From positions 62,001 to 126,000 of the forward strand of contig NZ_MQWC01000004.1 of the NCBI RefSeq assembly GCF_002954405.1: a stretch of DNA of 64,000 nt. Reading direction: 5' to 3'. Both the position numbers and the translations under genes were made by a program. This DNA comes from Salinibacter sp. 10B. GTDB taxonomy: Bacteria; Bacteroidota; Rhodothermia; Rhodothermales; Salinibacteraceae. Positions within the stretch are counted from its first letter, which is position 1. Each line of letters opens with the position of its first letter. Of the stretch, positions 10,764 to 27,280 are shown in pieces. Under the pieces are notes generated by a model, which had not been told where the DNA came from, searched no databases, and saw only the letters and a list, made by a program, of their open reading frames with translations.

Positions 10764-11267
10764 ATGTCGCAGATCGATCGCTTTCTCGATGCACTGGGGC
10801 GACTGGAGGTCGGGTGGACCTGCTCCACGGCAGATGAATTATCGTCTGTGCTCGAAGAGGTGCTTTCCCCTTCAAGTGTTGGGGCGCCACTGCCGTTCGA
10901 GGATCTGTCACTGGACGAGACGGACGTAAATCTGAAGCCCTCTCCGGCCGATATAGACGCCGCCGCAACGGGCGTCACCGCCGCCCGCCTAGCCATTGCC
11001 AGTTACGGGAGCATCCTCATTCAAAGCGCCGTGGATGCGACGGAAGCCGCGAGCCTTTTTCCCGACCGTCACGTGGCCATCCTTCGGGCCTCTGATATTG
11101 TGCCCGATATGGCGGCCGCGTTCGAACACCTCGGGCCCACCTTGCGGAACGATGCTGTGACCACTATTCTTGCCACCGGACCTAGTGCTACGGCGGACAT
11201 GGGAGCTCTAGTGAAGGGGGCTCACGGTCCGATGGAGGTGCACGTACTACTCATAGAGGATCGGTGA
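10764..11267 (+). CDS. lutC: LutC-like LUD-domain protein
   Basis: 167 residues, shorter than most LutC proteins (about 220-240), lacking part of the usual N terminus. The LUD core is clear: LAIASYGSILIQS, HVAILRASDIV, and TGPSATADMGALVKGAHGP near the end. LutC works with LutA and LutB in oxidising L-lactate to pyruvate. It starts 63 bp before the LutB fusion on the same strand, so the two are probably one operon, leading into the L-fucose genes. Confidence 0.9.
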   Translation: MSQIDRFLDALGRLEVGWTCSTADELSSVLEEVLSPSSVGAPLPFEDLSLDETDVNLKPSPADIDAAATGVTAARLAIASYGSILIQSAVDATEAASLFPDRHVAILRASDIVPDMAAAFEHLGPTLRNDAVTTILATGPSATADMGALVKGAHGPMEVHVLLIEDR

Positions 11268-11330
11268 GGGAGATATACCTTCTCCCCGGCGTTTGAACCG
11301 CTTTTATTTGCTTTGGTCCAGTATTGTCGT

Positions 11331-13511
11331 ATGCCTGACGTCTCGCGACAAACGAAAGCGACGGAGATCCGGCGTCTCATGGAGACCGAGGGGGCGGCAG
11401 TGGCGGAGAACACGCAGGCCTTTAACGCCGGTCGGTATGCTTCGGTGGACGGACTAGACGACTATGAAGAGCTCAAGCAGTGGGCGCGGGACATCAAGGA
11501 GGACGCCATCGAGCGCCTCCCCCAGCTCATCGAGGAGGTCCGCAGACAGATCGAGGAACGTGGCGGATCGGTGTATCTGGCCGAAGACGCCGTCGATGCA
11601 AATCGGTACATTGCCGACGTAGTGGGGGAGGCCGACCGGCTCGTGAAGAGCAAGTCGATGACGAGCGAGGAGATTGGGATCAACGAATTCCTTGAGAGGC
11701 GGGGCGTCGAGGTGATCGAGACGGACCTGGGAGAGTGGGTTTTGCAAGTAGCTGAAGAAGCCCCGTCCCACATCGTGGCCCCCGCCATCCACAAGTCGCG
11801 CGCGGCCATAGCGGACCTTTTCAATCAGCACTTTGACCCGGATCCGCCGCTGGAGACCGCGAAGGAGCTGACCCGCTTCGCCCGCAAGCAACTGGGGCGT
11901 TGCATCCAGGAGGCAGACGTGGGAATGACGGGGGCAAACTTCATTACGGCAGACACCGGAACGATTGCCCTCGTGACCAGCGAAGGAAATGCTCGCAAGA
12001 CAGCGCTGGTACCGTCTACACATATTGCGGTGGCGGGGATCGAGAAGATCATTCCGAGGGTGGAGGACCTACAACCGTTTGCAGAACTCATCGGGCGATC
12101 TGGGACCGGACAGGACCTCACGTCGTATTTCTCTCTTCTTACGCCGCCAGTGCCGTCGCCGGTGCCCAATTTTGATCGTCCGGACGAGCCGATGGAGGGA
12201 GGTGAGCGGGAATTTCATCTCGTTCTTCTCGACAACGGGCGGACGGATATGCGGGAGGATCCGCAGCTCCGCGAGACCCTCTACTGCATCCGCTGTGGGG
12301 CCTGCGCCAACTCCTGCGTCAATTTCCAACAGGTGGGCGGCCATGCGTTTGGGGGCGAGACCTACTCCGGGGGCATCGCAACGGGGTGGGAAGCAGGCGT
12401 CCACGGCCTAGAGTCCGCTGCCTCGTTCAACGACCTGTGCACCGGCTGCACACGCTGCATGAACGCCTGCCCGGTGAATATTGACATTCCGTGGATCAAT
12501 GTCGTAATACGGGATCGCATCAATCGAGAAGAGGCCCCGAACGCAATCGAGGGCCTCGTGGATGGCCTCTGGCCGGATGCGGAGCCGGACGGCGTGTCCC
12601 TCGCGCGGAAAGTCATCGCACACGTCGACACGCTGGCGCGGTGGGGCGCACGGATCGCTCCGATTGCCCGCTGGCTCGCGCGCCGAAGACCCGTTCGATG
12701 GCTCCTTGAGCGCGCGGTGGGAATCGATCCACGGCGAGATTTGCCGAGGCTTCAGTCCACAACGCTCCGGTCCTGGTTTCAGGATCGCCCGAGGCCGTCC
12801 GTGGAGGATCCGGACGTGATTTTCGTTCCGGACACGTACACGAACTATGTGTGGCCCGAGCGCGGACAAGCGGCCATCCGGGCCCTGGAGGCAGTGGGAT
12901 GTGGTGTTGGGCTTGCCGATGTCGGAGACGTGGGACGTCCAGCGTTGTCACAGGGCATGATTTCTACCGCAACGGCACGAGCGGAAGCGGTTTCAGCAGC
13001 GTTGGCCCCCCATCTGGAGGCGGGGCGCAGGGTGGTGTTCGTGGAGCCGACCGATCTGGCAATGGTGCAGGGCGAGTATCAGAAGCTCCTTCCGACGGCA
13101 GAGGCTGATCGGCTCGCCGATGCGTCCCTGGACGTGATGTCGGTCCTTCAGAACCAGTGGACCGAAGGGGATTCCGGAAAATTGCGGACGGGCGGGGGGC
13201 GCAAGCTCATATATCACAGTCACTGCCAACAGCGCACGTACGGCCTCCAGTCGTCGACAGTGGAGGTACTGGAGCATTTCGGATACAATGTGGCGACGAC
13301 CTCTGCCGAGTGCTGCGGCATGGCCGGTTCGTTTGGCTACAAGTCCGACTACTACGAGTTGAGTATGCGGGTGGGGGAGGCGCTTCGAGACGAGGTGGTG
13401 TCGCTGGCAGGGGAAGAGGCGACGGTTGTAGCGAGCGGGATCTCGTGCCGAGAGCAGTTAGAGGCAGTGCTCGATCGCTCGGTCGTACATCCGGTGCAGC
13501 TTCTTGTCTAA
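11331..13511 (+). CDS. lutB: LutB iron-sulfur protein fused to a LutA-like CCG domain
   Basis: 726 residues. Residues 1-290 form the LUD domain of LutB (GMTGANFITADTGTIALVTSEGN). Two 4Fe-4S motifs follow: CIRCGACANSC near 325 and CTGCTRCMNACPVN near 375. From about 480 to the end there is a heterodisulfide-reductase/LutA-like part with HCQQRTYG and AECCGMAGSFGYKS, which normally belongs to the separate protein LutA. The first CCG box expected in LutA is lost: the equivalent place reads GDVGRPALS where the family has CCGRPLLS. Together with LutC it should oxidise L-lactate, the expected product of the downstream fucose pathway. D-lactate or glycolate are alternatives. Confidence 0.92.
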   Translation: MPDVSRQTKATEIRRLMETEGAAVAENTQAFNAGRYASVDGLDDYEELKQWARDIKEDAIERLPQLIEEVRRQIEERGGSVYLAEDAVDANRYIADVVGEADRLVKSKSMTSEEIGINEFLERRGVEVIETDLGEWVLQVAEEAPSHIVAPAIHKSRAAIADLFNQHFDPDPPLETAKELTRFARKQLGRCIQEADVGMTGANFITADTGTIALVTSEGNARKTALVPSTHIAVAGIEKIIPRVEDLQPFAELIGRSGTGQDLTSYFSLLTPPVPSPVPNFDRPDEPMEGGEREFHLVLLDNGRTDMREDPQLRETLYCIRCGACANSCVNFQQVGGHAFGGETYSGGIATGWEAGVHGLESAASFNDLCTGCTRCMNACPVNIDIPWINVVIRDRINREEAPNAIEGLVDGLWPDAEPDGVSLARKVIAHVDTLARWGARIAPIARWLARRRPVRWLLERAVGIDPRRDLPRLQSTTLRSWFQDRPRPSVEDPDVIFVPDTYTNYVWPERGQAAIRALEAVGCGVGLADVGDVGRPALSQGMISTATARAEAVSAALAPHLEAGRRVVFVEPTDLAMVQGEYQKLLPTAEADRLADASLDVMSVLQNQWTEGDSGKLRTGGGRKLIYHSHCQQRTYGLQSSTVEVLEHFGYNVATTSAECCGMAGSFGYKSDYYELSMRVGEALRDEVVSLAGEEATVVASGISCREQLEAVLDRSVVHPVQLLV

Positions 13512-13650
13512 GCCTCCCGATACGAATTCCCCGAAGACCCTTGGCGGGGCGTTCACTGCTGGGGGGCGTCGATCGTTTGCGGTTCACGGTCGCATCGCGG
13601 ACAACACATCAGTTTCATCGAGCTCATATTCGCAGGCACGCTGACTCACG

Positions 13651-14970
13651 ATGAGCGATTCTGTTGCCGAGACGGAGCCATCCGACGAGCCGGCGGTCGT
13701 GCCGCGTCATTTGCTGTGGCCGTTCGTGCTGCTGACGAGCTGCTTCGCGTTTTGGGGGCTGGCCAACAACATGACGGACACGCTGCTGGCCGCCTTCAAG
13801 CGGATCCTGAGCATGTCAGACTTCCGTACGTCGTGGGTGCAGATGGCCTTTTACGGCGCCTATGGGTGTCTCGCACTCCCCGCGGCCCTGTTTGTCCGAA
13901 AGTACACCTACAAGGCTGGGGTCATGCTGGGACTCGCACTGTTCAGTGTTGGGGCGTTACTGTTTTACCCCGCGAGTCTCACGATGAACTACTTTCATTT
14001 CCTGGTGGCCCTGTACGTGCTGGCGAGTGGGCTGTCAATTCTGGAAACCAGTGCCAATCCGTTCATCGTGTCGCTCGGGCCGGAAGCGACCGGCACACAG
14101 CGGCTGAACCTCGCCCAGTCGTTCAATCCACTCGGGTCCATTACGGGCGTCTTTCTCAGCCAGCAGTTTATTTTGTCGGATCTAAACCGAGCCGGGGCGC
14201 AGGAGCGGGCGCAGATGGGCGCTGAGCAGTTGCGCCAAATTCAGTCTGCGGAGTTGACGGCGGTGATGGGGCCGTACGTGGGCGTGGCCCTGATCCTGGT
14301 GGTGCTCTGCGGACTGATTGCCGTTACGGACATGCCCGATGAGTCGGCGTCGGATCAGGAGTTTCGTTTGTGGTCAACTCTTGGCCGGTTGTTTCAGAAG
14401 CCGCATTACCTTGGGGGAGTGGTGGCGCAGTTCTTCTACATCGGCGCGCAGATCGGGGTGTGGTCATTCACAATCCGCTACGTGATGGCGGAGCTCGGCA
14501 ATACAGAGGCGGAGGCGTCGACGTACTACATCGGCGCACTGGTTCTCTTTACCGGATCACGGTTTCTTTCCACCTGGCTGATGAGCTACGTGAAATCGAG
14601 CACGCTGCTCCTCTGGCTCTCAGGTCTAGCCGTGGGACTTACGGCAATGGTCATTGGGGGCAGTGGGTATGTGGGCGTGATTGCCTTGGTGGGGATCTCG
14701 GGGTGTATGTCGCTCATGTTTCCGACCATTTTTGGCCTGTCGGTGCGTGGGCTCGGCGAGGACGCGAAGATCGGTGGGTCCGGTCTCATTATGGCCATCG
14801 CGGGGGGCGCTGCATTTCCCGCCATACAGGGACTGATTTCCGACGCCACCGGCAGCATTCACCTTGCGTTCGTGGTGCCGCTGTTTTGCTTCGTCGTGAC
14901 GGCGCTGTACGGACTGGCGTTTTGGAACGACTGGTTTTCCTCTGCAGAGGGGAGAGAGTCCTCCGCTTAG
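13651..14970 (+). CDS. fucP: FucP-like sugar:H+ symporter (MFS)
   Basis: 439 residues with about 12 membrane helices. The N terminus after an acidic tail (FWGLANNMTDTLLAAFKRI) is the signature of the FHS/FucP branch of the major facilitator family, and GLSILETSANPFIVSLGP matches its conserved helix. FucP members import L-fucose and related 6-deoxy sugars with protons. It begins the sugar block 139 bp after the Lut fusion, and the dehydratase gene follows after 51 bp, which supports L-fucose as substrate. The exact sugar is inferred from context. Confidence 0.9.
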   Translation: MSDSVAETEPSDEPAVVPRHLLWPFVLLTSCFAFWGLANNMTDTLLAAFKRILSMSDFRTSWVQMAFYGAYGCLALPAALFVRKYTYKAGVMLGLALFSVGALLFYPASLTMNYFHFLVALYVLASGLSILETSANPFIVSLGPEATGTQRLNLAQSFNPLGSITGVFLSQQFILSDLNRAGAQERAQMGAEQLRQIQSAELTAVMGPYVGVALILVVLCGLIAVTDMPDESASDQEFRLWSTLGRLFQKPHYLGGVVAQFFYIGAQIGVWSFTIRYVMAELGNTEAEASTYYIGALVLFTGSRFLSTWLMSYVKSSTLLLWLSGLAVGLTAMVIGGSGYVGVIALVGISGCMSLMFPTIFGLSVRGLGEDAKIGGSGLIMAIAGGAAFPAIQGLISDATGSIHLAFVVPLFCFVVTALYGLAFWNDWFSSAEGRESSA

Positions 14971-15021
14971 CGACGATTGGGACCCGAGTTGTGCATATTC
15001 ATCATGTCATGCAGAGCAACC

Positions 15022-16320
15022 ATGTCACTCACCATCACTGATTTTGAGGTGCTCGACCTTCGGTTCCCGACGTCGCGGACGCGGGACGGGTCGGATGCAA
15101 TGCACCCTGATCCCGACTATTCGGCGGCATACGTTATTCTCCACACCGATCAGGGGAAGGAGGGACACGGATTGACCTTCACCATTGGACGAGGAACCGA
15201 CGTCTGCGTCGCCGCCATCGAGGCACTTGCCCCGCATGTAGTGGGCCGGCCGCTTGGGGACATCACGGGTGACATGGCCGGCTTCTGGCGAACGATCACG
15301 AGCGATGGCCAGTTGCGCTGGCTCGGGCCGGAAAAGGGCGTCATTCATCTTGCGACGGCGGCACTCGTGAATGCCGTATGGGATCTGTACGCGAAAGTGG
15401 AGGGGAAGCCCCTCTGGAAGTTGCTGGCCGACATGTCGCCGGAGGAGTTGGTGTCATGCATCGACTTTCGATACCTCTCCGATGTTCTTTCTCCCGACGA
15501 GGCGACGGCGATGCTGGAGAAAAAATCGGATACGAAGGAGGAACGAGAGGCCAAGCTGCGGGCTGAGGGGTATCCGGCCTATACCACCTCAGCGGGCTGG
15601 CTGGGGCACTCCGATGAGGAGATTCGTCGTCGCTGCCGAGCTGGAGTGGATGCAGGATGGGACCATTTTAAGCTGAAGGTGGGAAACGACCTTGCGGATG
15701 ATCGCCGTCGGGCCGCCGTCGTGCGGGAGGAGATTGGGCCGGATCGCCATTTGATGATGGATGCCAATCAGCGGTGGGACGTGGGGGAAGCCATCGAAAA
15801 GATGGAGTCGCTGGCGGCATTTGATCCATGGTGGATCGAAGAGCCGACGAGTCCGGACGACGTGCTGGGGCACGCTGCAATTGCTGAAGGGATTGCCCCG
15901 ATCGGGGTGGCGACAGGTGAACAGTGTCAGAATCGGGTTCTGTTTAAGCAGTTCCTTCAAGCGGGCGCTATGGACATTTGCCAGATTGACGCCTGCCGAC
16001 TGGGCGGCGTGAATGAGGCGCTGGCCGTGCTGCTACTAGCGGCCAAGTATGAGGTCCCGGTCTGTCCGCACGCAGGGGGCGTAGGGCTGTGCGAGTACGT
16101 TCAGCATCTAGCGATCTTCGACTACCTCTGTGTCAGCGCCTCGCTTGAGGGGCGGGTCATTGAGTATGTTGATCACCTGCACGAACATTTCGTCGATCCG
16201 GTGACCATCCGGAATGGGCGATACATGCCGCCCACGCAGGCGGGCTACAGCATCGAAATCGCGCCCGAGAGTCGTCGACGATTTTCGTATCCGGACGGAC
16301 CGGTCTGGGCGGCCGGGTGA
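15022..16320 (+). CDS. fucD: L-fuconate dehydratase (enolase superfamily)
   Basis: 432 residues from ATG 15022 (MSLTITDFEVLDLRFPTSR); ATG 15004 is possible. The N terminus closely matches L-fuconate dehydratases, including DGSDAMHPDPDYSAAYV. Enolase-superfamily elements are present: KLKVGND with the acid/base Lys near residue 220, metal ligands in MMDANQRW, EEPTSPDD and TGEQCQN, and a late His in CPHAGGVGLCEYVQH. It removes water from L-fuconate to give 2-keto-3-deoxy-L-fuconate. It sits between the transporter and the mutarotase, as expected in a non-phosphorylating fucose operon. Confidence 0.95.
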   Translation: MSLTITDFEVLDLRFPTSRTRDGSDAMHPDPDYSAAYVILHTDQGKEGHGLTFTIGRGTDVCVAAIEALAPHVVGRPLGDITGDMAGFWRTITSDGQLRWLGPEKGVIHLATAALVNAVWDLYAKVEGKPLWKLLADMSPEELVSCIDFRYLSDVLSPDEATAMLEKKSDTKEEREAKLRAEGYPAYTTSAGWLGHSDEEIRRRCRAGVDAGWDHFKLKVGNDLADDRRRAAVVREEIGPDRHLMMDANQRWDVGEAIEKMESLAAFDPWWIEEPTSPDDVLGHAAIAEGIAPIGVATGEQCQNRVLFKQFLQAGAMDICQIDACRLGGVNEALAVLLLAAKYEVPVCPHAGGVGLCEYVQHLAIFDYLCVSASLEGRVIEYVDHLHEHFVDPVTIRNGRYMPPTQAGYSIEIAPESRRRFSYPDGPVWAAG

Positions 16321-16427
16321 AGGAAGGCTCGTTCAGCGCCTGTCTTTGGGAGGGGAATCGAGAAAAGCGACCTGAGGACAGTACCCCGTGTCGAAATCTA
16401 CCATCTGTGATTAGTGTCTACTCAATC

Positions 16428-17141
16428 ATGAGCTCGCGTTCCAGTACCAAGGAATCCTCTCTTACGGACGATCGACGGCGGTACGGTCATCTTATTCGGC
16501 TCAAGCCCGAGTACCGGGAGCGGTACATTGCGCTCCATGCGCATCCGTTTCCTGGGCTGATCGAACGAATGCATGATGCCGGCCTTCGGAACTACTCGAT
16601 CTTCCTGAAGGGTGACCGCCTGTTCTCGTACTACGAGTATGTGGGAGAGAACTTTGAGAGCGACATGGACGCGATGGCCGACGACGATACTGTGCAGGAC
16701 TGGTGGACGCTGACCGATCCGATGCAAGAGCCGTTGCCGGAACGGGAGGAGGGGGCATGGTGGCTTCGCATGGAAGAATTCTACCATGGTGGACCGAAGA
16801 TTGTCCCGACTGAACAGGCGCAGCGAATGGCATTTGTCAGTACGTTTCGGGACGGAACGACTCCCCAAATCCAGGCCGCGTACAGGGAGCTGGGAGAGGC
16901 ATTTGTGAAAGCGATGGCGGAAACCAACTTCCAAAACTACACGGTGTACGGCAGGGATACGCGCCGTTACACGTACCTTGAGTACGCTGGAGATGACTTC
17001 CAGACGGATCGGGCTCGGCTCCGATCCACCGCGCCGATGGAACAGCTTCGCCAGACCCTGAAGCCGCGTCTTGTGTCCCACGCGGCCGGCCATAATGGGT
17101 CCGCGTCTGGACGGATGGATTCGATCTTCTTTGCGGAGTAG
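16428..17141 (+). CDS. Tandem two-domain L-rhamnose/L-fucose mutarotase (RhaM-like)
   Basis: 237 residues from ATG 16428, about twice the normal RhaM length of 105. The first domain (about 18-115) is typical: HLIRLKPEYRERYIALHAHP with the conserved His, NYSIFLKGDRLFSYYEY and DPMQEPLP. The second (about 125-220) repeats the fold (NYTVYGRDTRRYTYLEY) but has lost the His. RhaM-type enzymes interconvert alpha and beta anomers of 6-deoxy-L-sugars, feeding the correct anomer to the dehydrogenase. It lies between the dehydratase and the lactonase genes. The second domain may serve only structure. Confidence 0.85.
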   Translation: MSSRSSTKESSLTDDRRRYGHLIRLKPEYRERYIALHAHPFPGLIERMHDAGLRNYSIFLKGDRLFSYYEYVGENFESDMDAMADDDTVQDWWTLTDPMQEPLPEREEGAWWLRMEEFYHGGPKIVPTEQAQRMAFVSTFRDGTTPQIQAAYRELGEAFVKAMAETNFQNYTVYGRDTRRYTYLEYAGDDFQTDRARLRSTAPMEQLRQTLKPRLVSHAAGHNGSASGRMDSIFFAE

Positions 17142-17183
17142 TGGTTTTCCCCATCGGCAGATTTCCGATCTGAATGTTCCTGA

Positions 17184-18041
17184 ATGATGTCCATTCCGCC
17201 TCTCATCGATGCTCACGTCCACCTGTGGAATCCCAACCATTTGGGGTATGGTTGGCTTGAGTCCATTCCGGCCCTTCACCGGCCGTACGGCGTGGACGAG
17301 TATCGGGCGGCCACGGCAGATACGGAGATAGAGGGCATGATCTTCGTCGAGTGTACCGAGTCCTTTAGCGACGCGGTGAGCCGGCGGGAGGTCGACTGGG
17401 TCCAATCGCTCCGCGACGATGAGGCCTGGCTCCAGGGCATCGTTGCGCACGCATCATTGGAGAAAGGGACCGACGTCCAGGCCCACCTGAGCTGGCTTTC
17501 GGACCAGCCGCTCGTGACGGGCGTCCGACGGATTGTACAAGACGAGGCGCCCGAGTTTCTTACGTCCGCAGGCTTCGTCGAAGGCGTGCAGTTGCTCCGT
17601 GACTACGACTTCTCCTTCGACCTCACGATTCAGTCCCATCAGCTGGAGGCGGCCACCGAACTCGTCGATCGGTGTCCCAATGTCCAGTTTGTGGTCGATC
17701 ATCTTGGGAAACCACAGATTCGCGACGGCGAGTGGACAGGCTGGACCGACGCCTTGGAGAAATTATCTGACCGAGAGAATGTCGTCTGTAAGCTTTCGGG
17801 CGTGCTCACGGAAGCGAACCTTGACAGCTGGACGTACGACGATGTCGTGCCGTATCTGGAGCATGCCGTCACGTGTTTTGGGATCGATCGGATTCTCTTC
17901 GGGGGCGATTGGCCCGTCGTGCGGCTGGCGGCAGACTATTCGACGTGGCTGGACGTGCTGCGTCGGGCAGTGCAGGAATGGTCCGTGGCGGAACGGACGG
18001 CGCTTTTTCGGAAAAATGCGGAGCGAATCTACCTGCGTTGA
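17184..18041 (+). CDS. L-fuconolactone hydrolase (amidohydrolase 2 family)
   Basis: 285 residues. The amidohydrolase TIM barrel starts with IDAHVHLWNPNHLGYGW (metal-type HxH), and further sites are seen in FVVDHLGKP (His near 173) and RILFGGDWPVV (Asp near 255). These are hallmarks of the COG3618 lactonase group, which includes L-fucono-1,5-lactonase and L-rhamnono-lactonase. It opens the lactone made by L-fucose dehydrogenase to L-fuconate. It starts at 17184 or 17187 (ATG ATG), 42 bp after the mutarotase gene. Confidence 0.9.
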   Translation: MMSIPPLIDAHVHLWNPNHLGYGWLESIPALHRPYGVDEYRAATADTEIEGMIFVECTESFSDAVSRREVDWVQSLRDDEAWLQGIVAHASLEKGTDVQAHLSWLSDQPLVTGVRRIVQDEAPEFLTSAGFVEGVQLLRDYDFSFDLTIQSHQLEAATELVDRCPNVQFVVDHLGKPQIRDGEWTGWTDALEKLSDRENVVCKLSGVLTEANLDSWTYDDVVPYLEHAVTCFGIDRILFGGDWPVVRLAADYSTWLDVLRRAVQEWSVAERTALFRKNAERIYLR

Positions 18042-18092
18042 GGCATACGCCGGCGTCCGGACTGCAATCTTTAAACGATACGACATCCCGTT

Positions 18093-18857
18093 ATGCGATT
18101 AGCCGACAAGACTGCTATCATTACCGGTGCCAGCACGGGCATCGGCCGGGCCTGCGCCCTCCGGTTTGCGGAGGAGGGAGCTGAGGTGCTCATCGCGGAC
18201 CTCCAGGTGGAGGAAGGGCAGGCTGTGGTGGATGAGATCGGGGCAGCCGGTGGAGAAGCACAGTTCATAGAGATCGACGTGCGCGATCCGGATGACAATA
18301 CGCGCATGGTGGAGGAATGTCTGGATACGTTTGGGGGGCTCGACATTCTCTTCTGCAACGCTGGCGTCACGCTTGCCGCCGAGATCACGGAGACCACCGA
18401 CGAGGACATGGATTCTCTACTCGACGTGAACGTGAAGGGAGGAATGTATGCGGCCCGTGCTGCCGTGCCCCACATGTTAGAGCAAGAGGGCGATAGCTCG
18501 ATTCTTTTCACGGCCAGCAAGACCGGGCTCGTGGCACAAGAGGACTCGCCGGTGTACTGCGCGTCGAAGGGAGCAGTCGTTATGTTAGCGAAGGCCCTCG
18601 CACTCGATTATGCGGATCGCGGCATTCGAGTGAATGCGCTCTGTCCGGGAATTATCGACACCCCGATGCTAAATCGGTACATCGAAGATCTTCCCAATCC
18701 GCAAGATGCCTGGCAGGAATTCCGGCAAGCCCAGCCCATTGGACGGCTCGGAACGCCCGAAGAGTGTGCCGACGCCGCCCTGTGGCTCGTGTCCGAGGAG
18801 GCTCGTTTCATCACCGGGGTAGCGCTTCCCGTCGATGGTGGGTTTACGGCAGAGTAG
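18093..18857 (+). CDS. SDR-family dehydrogenase of the fucose cluster
   Basis: 254 residues, classical short-chain dehydrogenase length. It has the nucleotide site TGASTGIGRAC at 11-21, NAG near 90, and the catalytic Tyr-Lys pair in YCASKGAVVM. The acidic residue after the second strand (ADLQ) suggests NAD over NADP. By context it is either L-fucose 1-dehydrogenase or 2-keto-3-deoxy-L-fuconate 4-dehydrogenase; the neighbouring SDR would be the other. I cannot tell them apart from sequence alone, but the first reaction is a reasonable guess because the second SDR looks more like known keto-deoxy-fuconate enzymes. Confidence 0.85.
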   Translation: MRLADKTAIITGASTGIGRACALRFAEEGAEVLIADLQVEEGQAVVDEIGAAGGEAQFIEIDVRDPDDNTRMVEECLDTFGGLDILFCNAGVTLAAEITETTDEDMDSLLDVNVKGGMYAARAAVPHMLEQEGDSSILFTASKTGLVAQEDSPVYCASKGAVVMLAKALALDYADRGIRVNALCPGIIDTPMLNRYIEDLPNPQDAWQEFRQAQPIGRLGTPEECADAALWLVSEEARFITGVALPVDGGFTAE

Positions 18858-18903
18858 GGAGGAAAAAATGTGCATCGATATATAATGAATAGTTACCTTA
18901 TTT

Positions 18904-19680
18904 ATGGGCAAATTTGAAGAAAAAACAGTAATTGTTACCGGCGGCGCATCGGGGATTGGAAAGGCGATCTCGATGCTTTTTGCGGAGGAGAATGCGCAGG
19001 TTGCTCTTTTGGATATCGATGTCGAGTCCGCTACCGAAACAGTTCAAGAGATCCGGCAAAACGATGGAAGCGTTACTTTCTTCGAATGCGACGTAAGTGA
19101 TTCGGAGGAAGTGCACGAAACCGTAGACGACGTGGTTGACACATACGGGGGGCTCGATGTACTGATCAATAATGCAGGGATCGCCCATATTGGAACTGTT
19201 GAGGAGACGACAGAGGAAGAGTTGGACCGAGTCTACGAGGTCAACGTCAAAGGCGTTTACAACTGTTTGAAAGCTGGAGTGGAGGTCATGAAGGGCGATG
19301 GCGGGGGGGCAATCGTCAATATCGCATCGGTGGCCTCTCACGTGGGGATCCCCGACCGGTTTGCCTACTCGATGAGTAAGGGGGCGGTACTCACGATGAC
19401 GTACTCGGTTGCGCGCGATTATGTGGAGGACGGCATCCGGTGCAACGCCGTTTCGCCTGCGCGCATTCACACACCGTTTGTGGATGGGTTCCTTAGCGAA
19501 AATTATCCGGGAGAGGAGGAAGAAATGTTTGAAGAACTGTCGCAAACCCAGCCCATCGGACGAATGGGTGAACCGGAAGAGGTGGCAAAACTTTGTCTAT
19601 ATCTTTCTTCCGACGATGCCGGGTTTATTACTGGAAGCAGTATGCCCATTGATGGTGGGTTTATGTCACTCAAGGACTAA
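18904..19680 (+). CDS. SDR-family dehydrogenase, probable 2-keto-3-deoxy-L-fuconate dehydrogenase
   Basis: 258 residues. The cofactor site TGGASGIGKA and catalytic YSMSKGAVL are intact. The stretch RCNAVSPARIHTPFVDGFL followed by NYPGEEEEMFEELS and QPIGRMGEPEEV is characteristic of SDRs encoded beside fuconate dehydratase in Bacteroidota. Expected reaction: NAD-dependent oxidation at C4 of 2-keto-3-deoxy-L-fuconate to the 2,4-diketo acid. It is followed after 15 bp by the hydrolase for that product. The gap in front of it is AT rich, and the gene's first codons are noticeably more AT rich than its neighbours. Confidence 0.85.
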   Translation: MGKFEEKTVIVTGGASGIGKAISMLFAEENAQVALLDIDVESATETVQEIRQNDGSVTFFECDVSDSEEVHETVDDVVDTYGGLDVLINNAGIAHIGTVEETTEEELDRVYEVNVKGVYNCLKAGVEVMKGDGGGAIVNIASVASHVGIPDRFAYSMSKGAVLTMTYSVARDYVEDGIRCNAVSPARIHTPFVDGFLSENYPGEEEEMFEELSQTQPIGRMGEPEEVAKLCLYLSSDDAGFITGSSMPIDGGFMSLKD

Positions 19681-19695
19681 CCTTTTTTAACGATA

Positions 19696-20565
19696 ATGAA
19701 ATTGATTCGGTTTGGGGATCCCGGGCACGAGACTCCGGGAGTGCTTCGTGAGGATGGAACGCGCATCGATACTTCGTCGGAATTTGGCGATTACGACACG
19801 GTGTTTTTTGAGGCAGGCGGGTTGAAGAAGCTTCGAGAATGGACAAAACGCAGGGGAGAAGAGGCGCCGGTGGTGCCGGATACGGTGCGTCTCGGTCCAC
19901 CCATTGCTCGTCCAAGCAAGATTGTCTGTATCGGTCTTAACTACTCCGACCACGCTGCAGAGTCGGACATGGAAGTGCCGGACGAACCTGTGATCTTCTT
20001 CAAGGCCCCAAGTGCTGTTTGTGGTCCGAACGATAATCTAGTGCTTCCGAAGAACAGCACGAAGACGGACTGGGAGGTGGAGCTGGCGGTCGTGATCGGT
20101 CGGGAAGCTTCGTACGTTCAGCAAGAGGAGGCATTGGAATACGTGGCGGGATACACACTTCACAATGACTATTCGGAGCGGTCGTATCAGTTGGAGCGCG
20201 GTGGACAGTGGGTAAAGGGAAAGAGTTGCGATACATTTGCTCCGTTGGGACCGGTGTTGGCAACGCCGGATGAGGTGGACGACGTGGGGGCGCTCGACAT
20301 GTGGCTGGATGTGAATGGCGAGCGGAAGCAGTCCAGTTCCACCCGCCAGCTTATCTTTGGCATCCCAATCCTGGTAAGCTATCTCAGTCAGTTTATGACG
20401 CTTCGGCCAGGCGACGTGATTTCTACCGGGACGCCGGCTGGAGTGGGATTGGGGGAAGACCCCCCCGAGTTTTTGGCGGCGGGCGATGTCGTTTCGCTTG
20501 GAATTGAGGGCCTGGGCAAAGCCGAGCAGCAGGTAACCACTCATCCAGGGGAGGGGCAGCCGTAG
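19696..20565 (+). CDS. FAH-family hydrolase, probable 2,4-diketo-3-deoxy-L-fuconate hydrolase
   Basis: 289 residues, fumarylacetoacetate hydrolase superfamily. Core motifs: IVCIGLNYSDHAAE, FFKAPSAVCGP, the metal-binding acidic set in TDWEVELAVVIG and the loop HNDYSERSYQ, and ISTGTPAGVGLG. Family members next to fuconate dehydratase and SDRs cleave 2,4-diketo-3-deoxy-L-fuconate to pyruvate and L-lactate. It is the last gene of the fucose block and only 15 bp after the SDR. The L-lactate formed would be the substrate of the Lut proteins encoded at the front of the block. Confidence 0.88.
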   Translation: MKLIRFGDPGHETPGVLREDGTRIDTSSEFGDYDTVFFEAGGLKKLREWTKRRGEEAPVVPDTVRLGPPIARPSKIVCIGLNYSDHAAESDMEVPDEPVIFFKAPSAVCGPNDNLVLPKNSTKTDWEVELAVVIGREASYVQQEEALEYVAGYTLHNDYSERSYQLERGGQWVKGKSCDTFAPLGPVLATPDEVDDVGALDMWLDVNGERKQSSSTRQLIFGIPILVSYLSQFMTLRPGDVISTGTPAGVGLGEDPPEFLAAGDVVSLGIEGLGKAEQQVTTHPGEGQP

Positions 20566-21260: not shown

Positions 21261-22379
21261 ATGACGTACACTGTCCTCGACGCCATTGCCACCGGGAATC
21301 CTCCACTACGACGCACACAGGAGGAGGCCGCCGAGTTCATGTCGAGCATTGAAACGCTGCCCGACGCCCTGCAGAGTCGTTTGCCGGCGCTCTACCGGGG
21401 CTCGTCCATCGACAGCCGCTACACGTGTGTAGACGACTACGGCAAAGACAGCGCCGACGAGTTTACCTTCTTTCCAAAGACGTGGACCCTGGAGCCCGCC
21501 CCCACGACAGAAGAGCGCAACGAGCACTACCGGGCGTCCGCCGTGCCGCTGGCCGAAGACGTGGGGGGGCGGGCACTGGAGCAAGCGGGGGTCGAGGCCA
21601 AAGACGTCACACACGTCATTGCCGTGAGCTGCACCGGATTTTTTGCGCCGGGGCTCGACGTCGAGTTGGTGAAGCGGTTGGGCCTACCTCCGACCACCCA
21701 GCGGACGTTCATTGGGTTTATGGGATGCTACGCGGCGTTCAATGCGATGCGCGTGGCCCACGGGTTCTGCCAAAGTCAGTCCGACGCACGCGTGCTCGTG
21801 GTATGCACGGAGCTCTGCACCCTCCACTTTCAGATTGAGGAGTCGCTGGAGAGCGTTATTGTCAATTCCCTCTTTTCCGATGGGGCGGCTGCAGCAGTGT
21901 TTAGCTCACGATCAGAGGAGGAGGCCAACGGCCGCCTCGCATACATCGATGGCCGCTGCCACCTCGACGACGACTCGATGGAGGACATGACCTGGGCCAT
22001 CGGCGACACGGGCTTCAAGATGGGGCTTTCCTCGCGCGTGCCGGACGTGGTCGGTGAAAATCTGCCCGGCTACGTCGACAATCTGCTTTCGCCGCACGAT
22101 GTGGGGCCGGACGACCTGGACTTCTGGGCCATCCATCCAGGGGGCCGCCGGATTGTAGAAGGGGCGCAGGACACACTCGGCCTCAGCGATGCCGACGTAG
22201 CCGATAGCTTAGCCATTCTTCGGCAGTACGGCAACATGAGCTCTCCGACGATTCTTTTCGTTCTCAAGCGCATTCTCGACCGGCAGGCAGAGGGCGACGG
22301 GGCCCCGCCCGCGCACGGCCTTGCGATGGCGTTTGGCCCCGGCCTCACGATCGAAGGCGCTCTCTTTCAGCGTGTGTAG
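21261..22379 (+). CDS. Type III polyketide synthase (chalcone/stilbene synthase family)
   Basis: 372 residues. The catalytic triad is in place: Cys near 156 in GFMGCYAAFNAMR, His near 291 in FWAIHPGGRRI, Asn near 325 in YGNMSSPTILF. The C-terminal GFGPG-like loop appears as AFGPGLTIEGAL. These homodimers condense an acyl-CoA starter with malonyl-CoA units to make resorcinols, pyrones or chalcone-like products. Unlike many bacterial loci there is no methyltransferase, UbiA or oxygenase next to it. It could be mistaken for FabH, but the Asn motif and the CHS-type C terminus argue against that. The product cannot be predicted. Confidence 0.93.
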   Translation: MTYTVLDAIATGNPPLRRTQEEAAEFMSSIETLPDALQSRLPALYRGSSIDSRYTCVDDYGKDSADEFTFFPKTWTLEPAPTTEERNEHYRASAVPLAEDVGGRALEQAGVEAKDVTHVIAVSCTGFFAPGLDVELVKRLGLPPTTQRTFIGFMGCYAAFNAMRVAHGFCQSQSDARVLVVCTELCTLHFQIEESLESVIVNSLFSDGAAAAVFSSRSEEEANGRLAYIDGRCHLDDDSMEDMTWAIGDTGFKMGLSSRVPDVVGENLPGYVDNLLSPHDVGPDDLDFWAIHPGGRRIVEGAQDTLGLSDADVADSLAILRQYGNMSSPTILFVLKRILDRQAEGDGAPPAHGLAMAFGPGLTIEGALFQRV

Positions 22380-22452: not shown

Positions 22453-23808
22453 CTATTTCTCCAGTCCCGGATTGCGGTTCAGGAATTCGTCGTAGAGCTT
22501 TGAGTGTCGGCTTTCCAGCGGCAGCTTGTAGCCGTCGATGAAGAGGTGCTCCACGTCCGTGTCCGGCTGAAAGGGATCCCCGTCGGTCACGAAAAGGTTG
22601 GCGCGCTTGCCCACCTCGATGGAGCCCACCTGATCCGCGACGCCAAAGATCTGAGCAGGGGCCATGGTGACGGCCCGAAGGGCGTCCGTTTTGCCGAGCC
22701 CGTATGCTGCGGAGAAGCCGGCGTGAAACGGAAGGTTGCGCACATTCTCGGCGCTATTGGTTCGAAGGGCGACCGTCACGCCCGCCTCATGGAGCAGGCC
22801 GGGATTACGGTACACCTTATCGTAGCGGTCACTCTCGCGACTGGGGGGCTGCATCACGGGCCCCACAATGACGGGCACGTCTGCTTCGGCAATCTCATCC
22901 GCGACCCGCCATCCCTCCGTGACACCGCTTAAGACGACTTGATCGAGCACGTTGCGCTCCTCAGCCCAGTCGAGTGCCGCCGAGATGTCGGAGGCCGTAT
23001 TGGCGGAGATAAGCAGCTGTTGCTCGCCGCGAATGACGGGAATGAGCGCGTCCATTGCGGGCACGAACTTCGGCTGGCGTCGCTCCTCGGGCCGTTCGGC
23101 CACGGCCGAATCAATTTCGGCATAGAGCTCGGCCTTGTCCCACACGTCATTCAGGGTCTGCACGGCCTTCTCGGTCTCCTTCTGGATCGTCTCAGGGGAG
23201 CGATCGTCCGACGGGCCCTGTCGGCCCGTAGAGGGGAAGTCGAGCTTTGTCAGCTCCACGTCGCCCAGGTGCATCTGATCCTGCGTGTAGCCATGAAGGC
23301 CGATGAGGGCCGCTTCGCCCGGCAGCATGCCGTTCGAGGGCTCGGTCAGGACAGTCGTGATCCCGTGCACCCGCGTGACGGGAATGGACACCGAATTGGG
23401 GTTGACGGCGGTGATGGCTTCCATGTTGGCCGTCAGTTCCCCGATTTCGTTGTGGTCGATTGTTTCCGGGAGGGAGCCCACTTCCTGCAGTCCCAGCTTC
23501 GTCCCGCCGTCGATGAGGCCGGGATAGATCGTAAGGCCCTCACAGTCGATCGTGCGGGCATTGCCGGGCACCGATACGTTTGCACCCACGGCGGCAATCG
23601 AGTCGTCGCGGATGACGACGGTCCCGTTTGCAATTGTATCGGACGGAGTCGTCAGGATTTGGGCATTCGTAAGGGCAAACGGTCCCTGAAAGCCCGGATC
23701 CTTCTGGGCCTGTGCGGGGCTTGCCGCGAGCAGAACGGCGCAGATCCCGAAAACGAGGATCGTGAGGAAAGACCGTTGCGGGGAGGGCAAGGAGTCGGGG
23801 AGGAGCAT
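22453..23808 (-). CDS. Exported amidohydrolase-fold protein lacking the HxH metal motif
   Basis: 451 residues; ATG 23808 gives a signal peptide (SFLTILVFGICAVLLAASPAQAQ). It follows the imidazolonepropionase-like amidohydrolase pattern: composite beta-sandwich (IADGT-like NGTVVIRDDSIAAVG), barrel entry YPGLIDGGTKLGL, and the C-terminal APAQIFGVADQVGSIEVGKRANL. At the barrel entry, where active members have D-x-H-x-H, it has DGGTKLG, and the late catalytic Asp region reads ALRTNSAEN. Metal-dependent catalysis is therefore doubtful. It is last in a three-gene minus-strand set of related proteins and may be a partner subunit or binding protein for the intact member. Confidence 0.85.
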   Translation of the reverse strand: MLLPDSLPSPQRSFLTILVFGICAVLLAASPAQAQKDPGFQGPFALTNAQILTTPSDTIANGTVVIRDDSIAAVGANVSVPGNARTIDCEGLTIYPGLIDGGTKLGLQEVGSLPETIDHNEIGELTANMEAITAVNPNSVSIPVTRVHGITTVLTEPSNGMLPGEAALIGLHGYTQDQMHLGDVELTKLDFPSTGRQGPSDDRSPETIQKETEKAVQTLNDVWDKAELYAEIDSAVAERPEERRQPKFVPAMDALIPVIRGEQQLLISANTASDISAALDWAEERNVLDQVVLSGVTEGWRVADEIAEADVPVIVGPVMQPPSRESDRYDKVYRNPGLLHEAGVTVALRTNSAENVRNLPFHAGFSAAYGLGKTDALRAVTMAPAQIFGVADQVGSIEVGKRANLFVTDGDPFQPDTDVEHLFIDGYKLPLESRHSKLYDEFLNRNPGLEK

Positions 23809-23871
23809 GTAGAGCAGAAGCGTTGGGTCAACGATAATTCGTGCGCAGTGGAGGTCGCATTTGTCGGGGGG

Positions 23872-23915
23872 CGTACTGCGTGTCGACTGCGCCCGGGGGG
23901 AAATCACGCAGTACG
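23872..23915. repeat. Hairpin repeat (ACGCAGTACG family), copy 1
   Basis: CGTACTGCGT and ACGCAGTACG form a perfect 10-bp inverted repeat with a 24-nt loop, between two amidohydrolase genes. The right arm with its flank, ACGCAGTACGAAATAC, is identical over 16 nt to the right arm of the hairpin after korB (40587-40656). It is probably a dispersed intergenic hairpin that can influence mRNA stability or termination. Confidence 0.65.
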
Positions 23916-23931
23916 AAATACATAAACGCCG

Positions 23932-25353
23932 CTATTCCCACTGATCTGCGTTTCGGAAGCGCAGCTTTTCACTGGTGGCGTGGAGAAAGGCGGCCCCCTT
24001 GAGACAGCTGTGCTGCACGCCCGAGTAGTCGCCGTCGCGGGCCAGATCGACCGTTCCTTCCGGATCCACGCGCAAGCGCATGTCGTCGGGGTCGTCTTCG
24101 TGGTCAAAGCGTACAATGCCGTCCACGTAGGTGCGTTGCGGCTGGGTGTAGACGGAGAGGGGATGCTTGCTGAAGATGGCAAGGTCGGCGTCTTTGCCCT
24201 CTTCGATCGAACCCACCCGGTCGGCAATGCCGAGCTGCCGGGCCGGATTGATCGTTATGAGCGAGAGTGCCTGTTGGTCGGAGAGGTCGCCGTACCGCTG
24301 GGACTTGGCGGCCTGCAGGTAGAGGTCGCGCTGTTCGCCCGGAATGTCGGAGTTGATGGAGGTGTTGACGTCGTTCTTTTCTAGCACCGCGGCGTTGTAG
24401 GCGGTGGAGTAGTAAACTTCAAACTTGTAGGCCCACCAGTCCGAGAACACGGAGGCGCTGGCGCCATCATCACCAAAAGCGGCCAGCTCGGGCGCCACTT
24501 TGAACCCTTCATTCACGTGTTGAAAGACCACGTCGTCCACGCCAAAATCTTCGAGCACGTTCATGAGCATCACAATTTCGTCCGCTCGGTAGGAGTGGAC
24601 GTGTGGGATCACGTCGCCCTGCAGAACCCCGGCAAGCACCTCTAGGCGCTCGCTGTGTTCGGGTGGGCGATCACGGTCGCCGTTCTGGTAGGCCTGCTTG
24701 GCCTCGTGGTAGCGACGAGCCTCCGTGAGTGCATTTCGGATAACCTGCTCCACGCCCATTCGGGTTTGGGGCACCTGGTCGCGCTGGCCGTACAGGCCGG
24801 TTGGGTTTTCTCCGAGAGCAAACTTCACGGTACGGGGAGCGTCCTCCATCTTGAACGCTGCCGGATCGGTGGCGCCGTAGTGAAGCTTAATGGTCTCATT
24901 GCGCCCCCCAATCGGGTTGGCCGAGCCATGCATCACATGGGCGGCCGTGACGCCCCCGGCCAGCCCGCGGTAGAGGCCGATGTCGAATGGGTCGAGCACG
25001 TCGCCGACGCCCACCTCTGCGGTAACCTGATTCGTCGCCTCGTTGATGTTGCTAAGAGCAAAGTGCTGGTGGGCGTCAATGATGCCGGGCATCACGTACT
25101 CTCCGCTGGCATCGTAGGTCTCCACCCCGTTGGGAGCGGAGAGGTCCGTTCCCACCTGTGCGATATCGCCGTCGCGCACCAAGATGTCACCGTTTTCAAT
25201 GGTGCCGTTGGTGACGGTGAGGATCGTCGCGTCCTGAATGAGCCAGTCATTTGACGCGTTGGTGCGTTGCCGATCCTGGGCCGCGGCGGCGGTCGTGAGG
25301 CCGACGGTAAGTAGGAGGAGAAGGAACGAGCGTAGGGGAGTGGAAAGCATCAT
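23932..25353 (-). CDS. Exported metal-dependent amidohydrolase (apparently active member)
   Basis: 473 residues from ATG 25353, which starts a signal peptide (TPLRSFLLLLLTVGLTTAAAAQ). The imidazolonepropionase-like fold keeps its active-site set: DAHQHFAL for the first two His ligands, IPHVHSY and FQHVNEG for the other His residues, and the catalytic Asp in SINSDIPGEQ. It should hydrolyse a cyclic amide or a peptide-like substrate in the periplasm. It is the middle gene of three related minus-strand genes; the gap to the upstream one is 58 bp and to the downstream one 123 bp (with a hairpin repeat). Confidence 0.88.
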   Translation of the reverse strand: MMLSTPLRSFLLLLLTVGLTTAAAAQDRQRTNASNDWLIQDATILTVTNGTIENGDILVRDGDIAQVGTDLSAPNGVETYDASGEYVMPGIIDAHQHFALSNINEATNQVTAEVGVGDVLDPFDIGLYRGLAGGVTAAHVMHGSANPIGGRNETIKLHYGATDPAAFKMEDAPRTVKFALGENPTGLYGQRDQVPQTRMGVEQVIRNALTEARRYHEAKQAYQNGDRDRPPEHSERLEVLAGVLQGDVIPHVHSYRADEIVMLMNVLEDFGVDDVVFQHVNEGFKVAPELAAFGDDGASASVFSDWWAYKFEVYYSTAYNAAVLEKNDVNTSINSDIPGEQRDLYLQAAKSQRYGDLSDQQALSLITINPARQLGIADRVGSIEEGKDADLAIFSKHPLSVYTQPQRTYVDGIVRFDHEDDPDDMRLRVDPEGTVDLARDGDYSGVQHSCLKGAAFLHATSEKLRFRNADQWE

Positions 25354-25411
25354 GGTGCGGCAATCGAACAAAACAGAGGAAAGGTGTCCAGGGAGGGGCC
25401 GGAGACGGGGG

Positions 25412-27142
25412 CTACCGGTCAGGCGTACTCGTGCGTTCGCCAGAGATCGGGAACGATTGATCGCCGAGGGAGGCAGTGCCCTCAAAAGATTCGCCCTCGA
25501 CCGTTACGGTTACGGAGAGGGTGCCTTGAGGAGAGTTTACGGAAAAGGAGAGGGTCGTGCCGTCGAACGACACAGACTGCAGCTCTTGCTCGTCGCCCCT
25601 TGGGCCCACAAAGGTGCCTTCTAGCCCGGATTGATCGCCTTCGAGAGTGAGGGTGCCTGTGAGTTCCCCCTGAGGGCTTTCCACCGTATACGACCACGAA
25701 CCGAGGACGGCGGACACATCACCAGTAATCTCGCCCTGTTCCTGGCCGGAAGCGTAGTCGTAAAGCTGGCCGTCCACGAAGACGTGCTGCACCTTTGTGT
25801 CCTCGTGAAAATACGAGCCGTCGGTGACCACGAGATTTGCAATTTTGCCTTCCTCTACGGTGCCCAGCCGGTCGCTGAGGCCAAGGAGGGAGGCGGGCCG
25901 TGTGGTAAGGGCGGCAAGGGCCGTCTCTTCCGGAAGCCCGTGGTCGACCATTGTTCGGAGATTCGTTCGGATGTCGCCGGCGTCGGCCTCCCGGGTCGTG
26001 AAGCCAAACTGGAGACCGGCCTCGTGCAGCGTAGCAGCCGCTTCTTGGTATTTTTGGCGTTCCATGGCGTGACGCAACCGAAGGTTTGTTTCCTCTTCGG
26101 GCACGTCCTCGTAGGAGCGCGTTCGGAGGTCAGAGTCGTAATACTGGGCGGGCGTGTCCGTGGTGTCGGCCACGGTCGTATCCGACCCCACAGAGGTCTT
26201 TGGGGCGTCCGGCAATCCGAGGGTGAGGAAGAGCGGGGCGTCGACCGTCTGAAGAGCGTCGAGCGTGCGAAAGCTCTCTCCCAGACCCGCAAGCATCATT
26301 GGAAAGCCGAGCTCCTGCTGGAGGTTGAGGACGCGGTGGAGGGAGAGCGCATCGTCCGCGTAGAAGGCCATCGGCCGGTCGCCGTCGAGGACCGGGAAGA
26401 AGGCACTGTGGATCGGGTCCTGGGGCGGGCGCGGCTGCGACGAGTTTTGTGCGTAGTCCGCTTCGAGCGTTTGGCGCCGGTCCGCTTCACGATAGAGCTG
26501 GCGAAACTTTGCAATCACCGCCATCTCTGTCGCTGGGTAGATGTACCCCTCCGCGGTCTGGATTTCAGCAAAGAGCGACGAGGCGTCGTTCAGAATCATG
26601 TCGCTTGCCGTCTCGCCCCCGTACAGCACGTAGGCCCCGGTGCCGGGAAGCATCTGTCCCTCAGGGGCAACGTGCCCGGCGGTGAAGCCGGCCTGACGGA
26701 GCTTGTTGAGGCTGGAGGCATCGGGGGAGAGGAAGGGACGTGCCGATCGATCCGGCTGAATGCCAGCAGCGTCGGCGGGGGGATCGCCTGGGTCTTTCAC
26801 GTCGTTCCCGTTGCCGTTCTCTGCGTCGGATTCTGGCATCTCAATCCCGGCGTGAGAAAAGCCGTCAATGAAGCCAGCATACACGACCAGCGAGTCGGCG
26901 GCGATGCGGCGAGCATCATAGGGAACGTTCACGTTCGGCCCCACCGCCTCGATGATGCCGTCTTCTACCACGACCGTCGCGGATTCGAGGACCTGTCCCG
27001 GCGCCTGAACGACCTGCGCATTCTCAAGGGCATAGGTGGTGGTGACAGTGGGCGGGGTGATCTCATCCTGGGCGTGAGAGGGGAGGACGAATAGGCACAG
27101 GAGGGCACATCCCAGGAGGGACGCAACAGAACCACGGGGCAT
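25412..27142 (-). CDS. Exported amidohydrolase-fold protein with C-terminal beta domain
   Basis: 576 residues from ATG 27142 (ATG 27154 or 27202 also possible); signal SVASLLGCALLCLFVLPSHAQ. Barrel entry YAGFIDGFSHAG lacks a full HxH, and the late part FGFTTREADAGD lacks the usual catalytic Asp context, so it is probably a degenerate member. The last 100 residues (about 478-576) form an extra small beta domain (WSYTVESPQGELTGTLTL, GTTLSFSV, GEREST-like end) that also occurs inserted in the ThuA domain of the giant lipoprotein near 3.4-3.7 kb. It is first in the three-gene set. Confidence 0.85.
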   Translation of the reverse strand: MPRGSVASLLGCALLCLFVLPSHAQDEITPPTVTTTYALENAQVVQAPGQVLESATVVVEDGIIEAVGPNVNVPYDARRIAADSLVVYAGFIDGFSHAGIEMPESDAENGNGNDVKDPGDPPADAAGIQPDRSARPFLSPDASSLNKLRQAGFTAGHVAPEGQMLPGTGAYVLYGGETASDMILNDASSLFAEIQTAEGYIYPATEMAVIAKFRQLYREADRRQTLEADYAQNSSQPRPPQDPIHSAFFPVLDGDRPMAFYADDALSLHRVLNLQQELGFPMMLAGLGESFRTLDALQTVDAPLFLTLGLPDAPKTSVGSDTTVADTTDTPAQYYDSDLRTRSYEDVPEEETNLRLRHAMERQKYQEAAATLHEAGLQFGFTTREADAGDIRTNLRTMVDHGLPEETALAALTTRPASLLGLSDRLGTVEEGKIANLVVTDGSYFHEDTKVQHVFVDGQLYDYASGQEQGEITGDVSAVLGSWSYTVESPQGELTGTLTLEGDQSGLEGTFVGPRGDEQELQSVSFDGTTLSFSVNSPQGTLSVTVTVEGESFEGTASLGDQSFPISGERTSTPDR

Positions 27143-27211
27143 GGAACCGATCATACAGAATGGAAACAACCAAAAGGAGCGAGTCAAGACGGTCGTTAAC
27201 ATAGGCGCCGC

Positions 27212-27219
27212 CAAAGATA
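27212..27219 (-). promoter_or_regulatory. Possible -7 box upstream of the amidohydrolase set
   Basis: TATCTTTG on the minus strand matches the Bacteroidota -7 consensus TAnnTTTG and is identical to the box before the SAM riboswitch. It lies about 70 bp before the chosen start. No good -33 TTTG is seen, so this is tentative. Confidence 0.35.
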
Positions 27220-27280
27220 GTCTCACTCGACTCGTGCGGCGAGAGGTGGAATTCGTTTTACTTTTGTGTGATTGATCGTG

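Follow-up and report, generated by a model that had tools for sequence, protein, structure and literature searches.

A 64,000-nucleotide stretch of the Salinibacter sp. 10B genome (contig NZ_MQWC01000004.1; the window, meaning this whole stretch) carries a block of nine plus-strand genes at positions 10764–20565 (Table 1), which we regard with high confidence as an island for L-fucose breakdown by a diketo-hydrolase route, with a lactate-oxidising module for the last step. In block order the genes fall into the Pfam/NCBIfam families LUD, LUD with 4Fe-4S, MFS/fucP, MR_MLE, rhaM, Amidohydro_2, SDR, SDR and FAA_hydrolase, and these families and the coordinates bear out the number, strand and order of genes given in an initial annotation made from the DNA letters. 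The successive intergenic gaps measure 63, 139, 51, 107, 42, 51, 46 and 15 bp; the genes may be co-transcribed, and the 139-bp gap ahead of FucP could split the block into two transcripts. A Pfam scan finds no regulator family among the nine genes, and an intergenic alignment with a congener (genome G312) gives no clear shared operator, conservation being seen just 5′ of FucP. The GC fraction of the block in 1-kb windows is 0.53–0.63, with its minimum at SDR2, compared with 0.60–0.65 in the flanks, and is not decisive.

Table 1 Genes of the block and its 3′ neighbours, with positions in the window. Start codons were refined for LudB/LdhH (ATG 11331), FucD (ATG 15022) and the mutarotase (ATG 16428).
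Feature	Position	Strand	Supporting matches
LudC/LdhG-like LUD small subunit of L-lactate dehydrogenase (predicted), 167 aa	10764..11267	+	LUD_dom 61.7 bits
LudB/LdhH-like fusion: LUD domain, two 4Fe-4S sites, C-terminal CCG-like domain	11331..13511	+	LUD_dom 133.2 bits, Fer4_8
FucP, L-fucose:H+ symporter	13651..14970	+	MFS_1; TIGR00885 450.3 bits (cut-off 280.4)
L-fuconate dehydratase FucD, ENOSF1 type	15022..16320	+	MR_MLE; PDB 4a35 623.9 bits, 1yey 563.9 bits, 2hne 563.6 bits
L-fucose mutarotase (RhaM family), second divergent RhaM-like half	16428..17141	+	rhaM 102.9 bits; PDB 7byu 91.4 bits
Putative L-fuconolactonase (Amidohydro_2)	17184..18041	+	Amidohydro_2 155 bits; best model NF052480 152.5 bits (cut-off 400); PDB 4dlf 83.5 bits
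SDR1, probable L-fucose 1-dehydrogenase by elimination	18093..18857	+	adh_short_C2
SDR2, probable L-2-keto-3-deoxyfuconate 4-dehydrogenase, type 4	18904..19680	+	adh_short_C2; R152, R187, F196, T215
Putative FAH-family 2,4-diketo-3-deoxy-L-fuconate hydrolase (predicted products pyruvate and L-lactate)	19696..20565	+	Best model NF053535 354.8 bits (cut-off 500); PDB 8gsr 266.8 bits
Type III polyketide synthase	21261..22379
Three amidohydrolases	22453..27226	-

The gene content matches the published diketo-hydrolase pathway and in this way supports the earlier proposal that L-fucose is converted to pyruvate via L-lactate. L-Fucose would be imported by FucP, its anomers equilibrated by the mutarotase, and the sugar oxidised by SDR1 to a lactone that the amidohydrolase would open to L-fuconate. 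FucD would dehydrate L-fuconate to 2-keto-3-deoxy-L-fuconate, SDR2 would oxidise this product to a 2,4-diketo acid, and the FAH enzyme would cleave the diketo acid to pyruvate and L-lactate. Electrons from L-lactate would then pass through the LudBC-type LUD/FeS enzyme to the respiratory chain as the presumed acceptor, with formation of a second pyruvate. Because the gene pair for this lactate-oxidising enzyme precedes the fucose genes, the route from sugar to central metabolism would be closed within the block.

Among the sugar proteins, and in the block as a whole, only FucP scores above cut-off with a specific NCBIfam model. FucD aligns across nearly its full length, at 564–624 bits, with its nearest solved structures, which are human ENOSF1 (4a35), an enolase homologue of unnamed function (4ip4) and the Xanthomonas L-fuconate dehydratase (1yey/2hne). 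The best structural match of the mutarotase is an L-fucose mutarotase (7byu). This protein is a tandem of a normal RhaM domain and a divergent RhaM-like half, an arrangement also present in G312 (L077, 7809–8522), whereas mutarotase matches in other fucose loci cover the first half only. The second half reaches E=0.025 against rhaM here and 6.7e-4 in G312, neither attaining the cut-off, and hhalign pairs the two halves with a probability of 93.8 over 42 columns from profiles of two sequences only.

The two SDR proteins are assigned differently. Dehydrogenases of L-2-keto-3-deoxyfuconate are described as four types that differ at four residue positions; in type 4, the assayed Sphingobacterium mizutaii enzyme reportedly carries R-R-F-T, including R183, F192 and T211 (PMC11199699). 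In SDR2, R187, F196 and T215 are spaced like these three residues, and R152 stands at the spacing of Arg148 to position 183 in the Herbaspirillum enzyme; counted in an alignment with 4DQX, R152 meets Arg170 and T215 meets Arg231. In an alignment of 12 SDR2 orthologues, neither R152 nor R187 varies, and F196 and T215 are almost invariant. Judged from these residues, SDR2 is probably an L-2-keto-3-deoxyfuconate 4-dehydrogenase of type 4. An SDR2 match (≥55%) adjoins FucD in 9/11 other FucD loci in a sample of 296 genomes of the phylum (L081, L082 and L084–L092, with second-copy types excluded and L090 included), and an FAH gene lies 3′ of it in seven of the eleven; L089 and L091 are without both. 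The translation of SDR1 is without the arginine that sits three residues ahead of the catalytic tyrosine in SDR2, and the protein has no match to a specific model.

That the block acts on another sugar, be it D-arabinose, L-galactose or L-rhamnose, is very improbable. A D-arabinose route would end in glycolate, not lactate, which counts against that substrate. The alternative as a whole is opposed by the equivalog match of FucP above cut-off, the ENOSF1/Xanthomonas-type FucD, the L-fucose mutarotase as best structural match, and the confinement of GH29 to the host genome and G312 among the family genomes considered below. On its side are the FAH enzyme, whose best named model and best structure (8gsr, an L-2,4-diketo-3-deoxyrhamnonate hydrolase) are of the rhamnonate type, and the reported ability of L-2-keto-3-deoxyfuconate dehydrogenase to take D-KDP and L-KDGal as well (PMC11199699).

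The first two genes of the block are the host genome's only LUD genes. The longer one shares the LUD-FeS-CCG architecture of the quinone-linked L-lactate dehydrogenase LdhH and aligns with its model (NF045670; cut-off 800) over residues 29–721 with only 438.9 bits; its score against the LutB/LldF model TIGR00273 is 335.4 bits, also under the cut-off (444.8). The initial annotation called this protein a LutB-CCG fusion. Its LUD and 4Fe-4S parts hold, and cysteines 319/322/325/329 and 370/373/376/380 are invariant in five aligned sequences, whereas the protein gives no match to the Pfam CCG model and the CCG part is read from alignment and one motif. Both the LdhH and the GlpC model align to the C-terminal part, which has a single AECCGMAGSFG motif; in 5/5 aligned sequences the first CCG place reads GRP/GR, without CCG, and the second keeps the motif. 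Two CCG motifs are usual in LutA, and the LutA-type protein of another genome of the phylum (G135) has two. The label "Lut" should be narrowed to the haloarchaeal LudBC type.

By analogy, the LUD pair is predicted to oxidise L-lactate in an NAD-independent manner. The host genome contains no PF02652 lactate permease and no full-length LldD, its lone FMN_dh match spanning 46 of 350 positions; the search did not extend to NAD-dependent lactate dehydrogenase. These absences and that of other LUD genes, together with the co-occurrence of FucD and the fusion and the rhamnose genetics of Haloferax described below, support the lactate step proposed at the outset.

Co-occurrence was assessed in 27 genomes of the host family, including the host genome (G000), of which 14 reach the mark of 90% completeness and 5% contamination. 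FucD occurs in three of the 27 (G000, G312 and G297), and the full-length LUD fusion occurs in the same three (Fisher P=3.4e-4, kinship ignored); the remaining family matches to the fusion begin only from position ~370 and lie in other, mostly ~1,000-aa, open frames. GH29 fucosidases number two each in G000 and G312 and none in the other 25, other fucosidase families not having been searched in the family. The two alpha-L-fucosidases of the host genome lie far from the block (L203, 9679–11175; L204, 8967–10436), and the L204 protein has an F5/8 type C domain, its gene being followed by one for an acetyl-CoA hydrolase.

All nine genes recur in unchanged order in the congener G312, at 66–90% identity and with the same outer neighbours, and because the order is kept at this level of identity the nine-gene arrangement is not a chance one. 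Relative to the window, G312 has extra DNA between the M14 gene and LdhG and between the FAH and polyketide synthase genes. The polyketide synthase gene and the three minus-strand amidohydrolase genes that follow it adjoin the block there too. The flanks were compared in ten stretches, each from a different relative. Nine of these are without the block and come from seven congeners and two further members of the family; the tenth is the upstream contig of G312. All ten contain the M14 gene, and only G312 is collinear. In the nine block-free stretches, none of the other window genes tested (21 queries) lies beside M14, so insertion and deletion cannot be told apart there.

Across the phylum sample, a LutB match is found in 11 of 14 FucD genomes and in 34 of 282 others (Fisher tests here ignore kinship). 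LutB-type and LRA6-type FAH genes lie within 10 kb of each other in four of the 33 genomes having both (G000, G135, G227 and G286), against 0.17 expected under uniform placement with rounded genome sizes. With G000, which was ascertained, left out, the count is 3 versus 0.17 expected (P=7e-4), falling to 2 (P=0.013) when G227 and G286 are treated as a single genus. In G227, a 20-kb island (L082, 38–19846) places LutABC between rhamnose-type genes (an aldolase/SDR cut at the stretch edge, an isomerase and an FGGY kinase) and fucose genes (SDR, FAH, lactonase, GH95, an alpha-xylosidase-like gene, FucD, SDR2 and GH29). In G135, LutC-LutB-FucP stand opposite SDR, SDR2-type, FAH and the two-CCG LutA-type genes, and FucD was not found by the FucD search of the phylum sample. 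Both G227 and G135 have the non-fused LutABC type beside fucose or rhamnose genes.

Several observations weigh against a fucose-to-pyruvate island with its own lactate module. None of the matches for the mutarotase, lactonase, FAH enzyme and LdhH reaches its NCBIfam cut-off, the top NCBIfam models of FucD are other dehydratases and score far under cut-off, LudC is without any model, and the probable role of SDR1 as L-fucose 1-dehydrogenase is reached by elimination. The host genome also encodes a CCG-bearing protein of unassigned substrate in a 986-aa open frame. In the family, 13/27 genomes miss the completeness and contamination mark, so absences in those 13 are weaker; and in G297, an 84%-complete assembly without GH29 and without a FucM match in the stretch read, LudBC is on a separate 4.1-kb contig and the fucose cluster is rearranged. 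The initial annotation had proposed checking whether relatives keep the lactate and fucose genes together, and the answer is divided: the order is kept in G312, yet Lut genes share a stretch with FucD in only three (G000, G312 and G227) of the 14 genomes with a close FucD (≥64% identity; 12 from the phylum sample, G312 and G297), so Lut-Fuc linkage is not general. FucD and the Lut genes are 28 kb apart in G286, the FucD contig of G200 is just 4.8 kb, and a LutB match at E≤1e-60 is absent from G182, G158 and G190, the last with a FucD-like protein at 46%.

This pattern is where an alternative finds its support, namely that the LUD pair handles external or other metabolic lactate and that its neighbourhood with the fucose genes is non-functional. 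A separate promoter could fit in the 139-bp gap 5′ of FucP, Lut genes lie outside the stretch read in 11 of the 14 close-FucD genomes, and most archaeal LudBC loci have no sugar-acid gene matches nearby (see below). Against it, the host genome is without the PF02652 permease, the fusion occurs in exactly those of the 27 family genomes that have FucD, and the gene order is kept in G312. We consider this alternative improbable and retain the island with its lactate module as the preferred reading.

The nearest relatives listed for the fusion are mostly haloarchaeal. A contig scan confirmed at least 523 relatives, and the best 80 of these comprise 78 archaeal loci and two bacterial ones (L104, corresponding to G312, and L109, corresponding to G297); a small LUD (LdhG-type) gene precedes the fusion in 80/80. 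Within this best 80, the archaeal loci are 57–63% identical to the fusion, seven Haloferax species being at 61–62%, compared with 44–45% for the two remaining full-length fusions of the phylum sample. In a tree, a split with SH-aLRT 100 separates 81 rows from two further bacterial fusions, the only others sampled. The bacterial rows on the haloarchaeal side of this split number three and make up a single clade (SH-aLRT 96); the branching order within the 81 rows, including that among haloarchaeal groups, is not settled. Because of this, the direction of transfer is taken from the patchy distribution. FucD is absent at E≤1e-30 from all 50 haloarchaeal genomes represented by the 78 loci, a near-identical query finding relatives in the phylum and family. 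With a haloarchaeal-type LudBC and FucD in 0/50 haloarchaea, the block therefore has the appearance of a cross-domain mosaic, with sugar enzymes of bacterial kind and a lactate module that probably came from haloarchaea.

The haloarchaeal likeness could instead reflect an old gene of the bacterial lineage lost in most of its members, without archaeal transfer, which we judge possible yet doubtful. The deep fork of the tree leaves room for it, as the three bacterial rows are not placed inside the haloarchaea and few other bacterial fusions were sampled; the occurrence of the fusion in just 3/27 family genomes and the lower identity of the other bacterial fusions argue against it. Most of the 78 archaeal loci have no FAH or dehydratase match inside their 10-kb flanks. 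In six of the 78, LudBC shares its stretch with a lactonase-type amidohydrolase and an MR-type dehydratase, and in four of these with FAH, two of the four being cut at the edge. The six (L141, L142, L149, L153, L161 and L179) also have a luciferase-like monooxygenase, with IclR in 5/6, and may be a sugar-acid cluster.

Returning to transfer from haloarchaea, we propose with moderate confidence that LudBC acts as a portable completion module: an archaeal-type enzyme would have entered a halophilic bacterial lineage and settled permanently in front of its L-fucose genes, non-fused LutABC would have been recruited to the equivalent metabolic position in other lineages, and deoxyhexose diketo-hydrolase pathways would repeatedly gain a dedicated respiratory lactate oxidase that lets the whole sugar end as pyruvate. 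This suggests that the fate of the released lactate shapes which genes accompany deoxyhexose pathways, and it offers a testable case of an operon put together across domains in brines. Halophilic relatives carrying the block are predicted to use L-fucose as a carbon source, with both halves of the sugar reaching pyruvate, and block-free congeners are not. The pathway may also bear on how polysaccharides rich in fucose are turned over in salt lakes.

The closest known counterpart of the lactate module is in Haloferax volcanii, where haloarchaeal L-rhamnose catabolism is reported to yield pyruvate and lactate and deletion of HVO_1692/HVO_1693 (LudBC, with a 733-aa fusion) reportedly impairs growth on rhamnose (PMC8305020). 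This phenotype is the strongest outside support, by analogy, for the lactate reading. The enzyme kind and its place in metabolism, on L-lactate from a 6-deoxyhexose, appear the same, the sequence comparison being with seven other Haloferax species and not with the H. volcanii pair; here the sugar would be L-fucose, and bacterial sugar enzymes are encoded right beside the lactate module. With the non-phosphorylating L-fucose pathway of Xanthomonas and Herbaspirillum, as reported (PMC11199699), the block shares the predicted steps to pyruvate and L-lactate. It differs in an SDR2 of type 4 (the Sphingobacterium mizutaii type), a double mutarotase, a divergent lactonase and the added lactate dehydrogenase. 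In Actinomycetales and Rhodobacterales, lldD and lldEFG are reported in RhaR regulons and proposed to extend deoxyhexose catabolism to pyruvate (PMC3870299); those genomes are described as using the phosphorylating RhaEW rhamnose route, and the fusion here is of another architecture. Oxidative L-fucose genes are reported in Halomonas and saline-mat bacteria, in a paper whose main text does not contain the words lld or lut and describes no lactate module (PMC5507952). A literature search, with poor coverage of subscription journals, found no paper combining L-fuconate with LutABC, and among the results listed from broader searches none dealt with the pairing either. A lactate dehydrogenase extending deoxyhexose catabolism to pyruvate is thus already published for rhamnose regulons and haloarchaea; what is new here is its association with L-fucose, in which bacterial sugar enzymes and a haloarchaeal-type lactate enzyme lie adjacent and are kept together in a congener.

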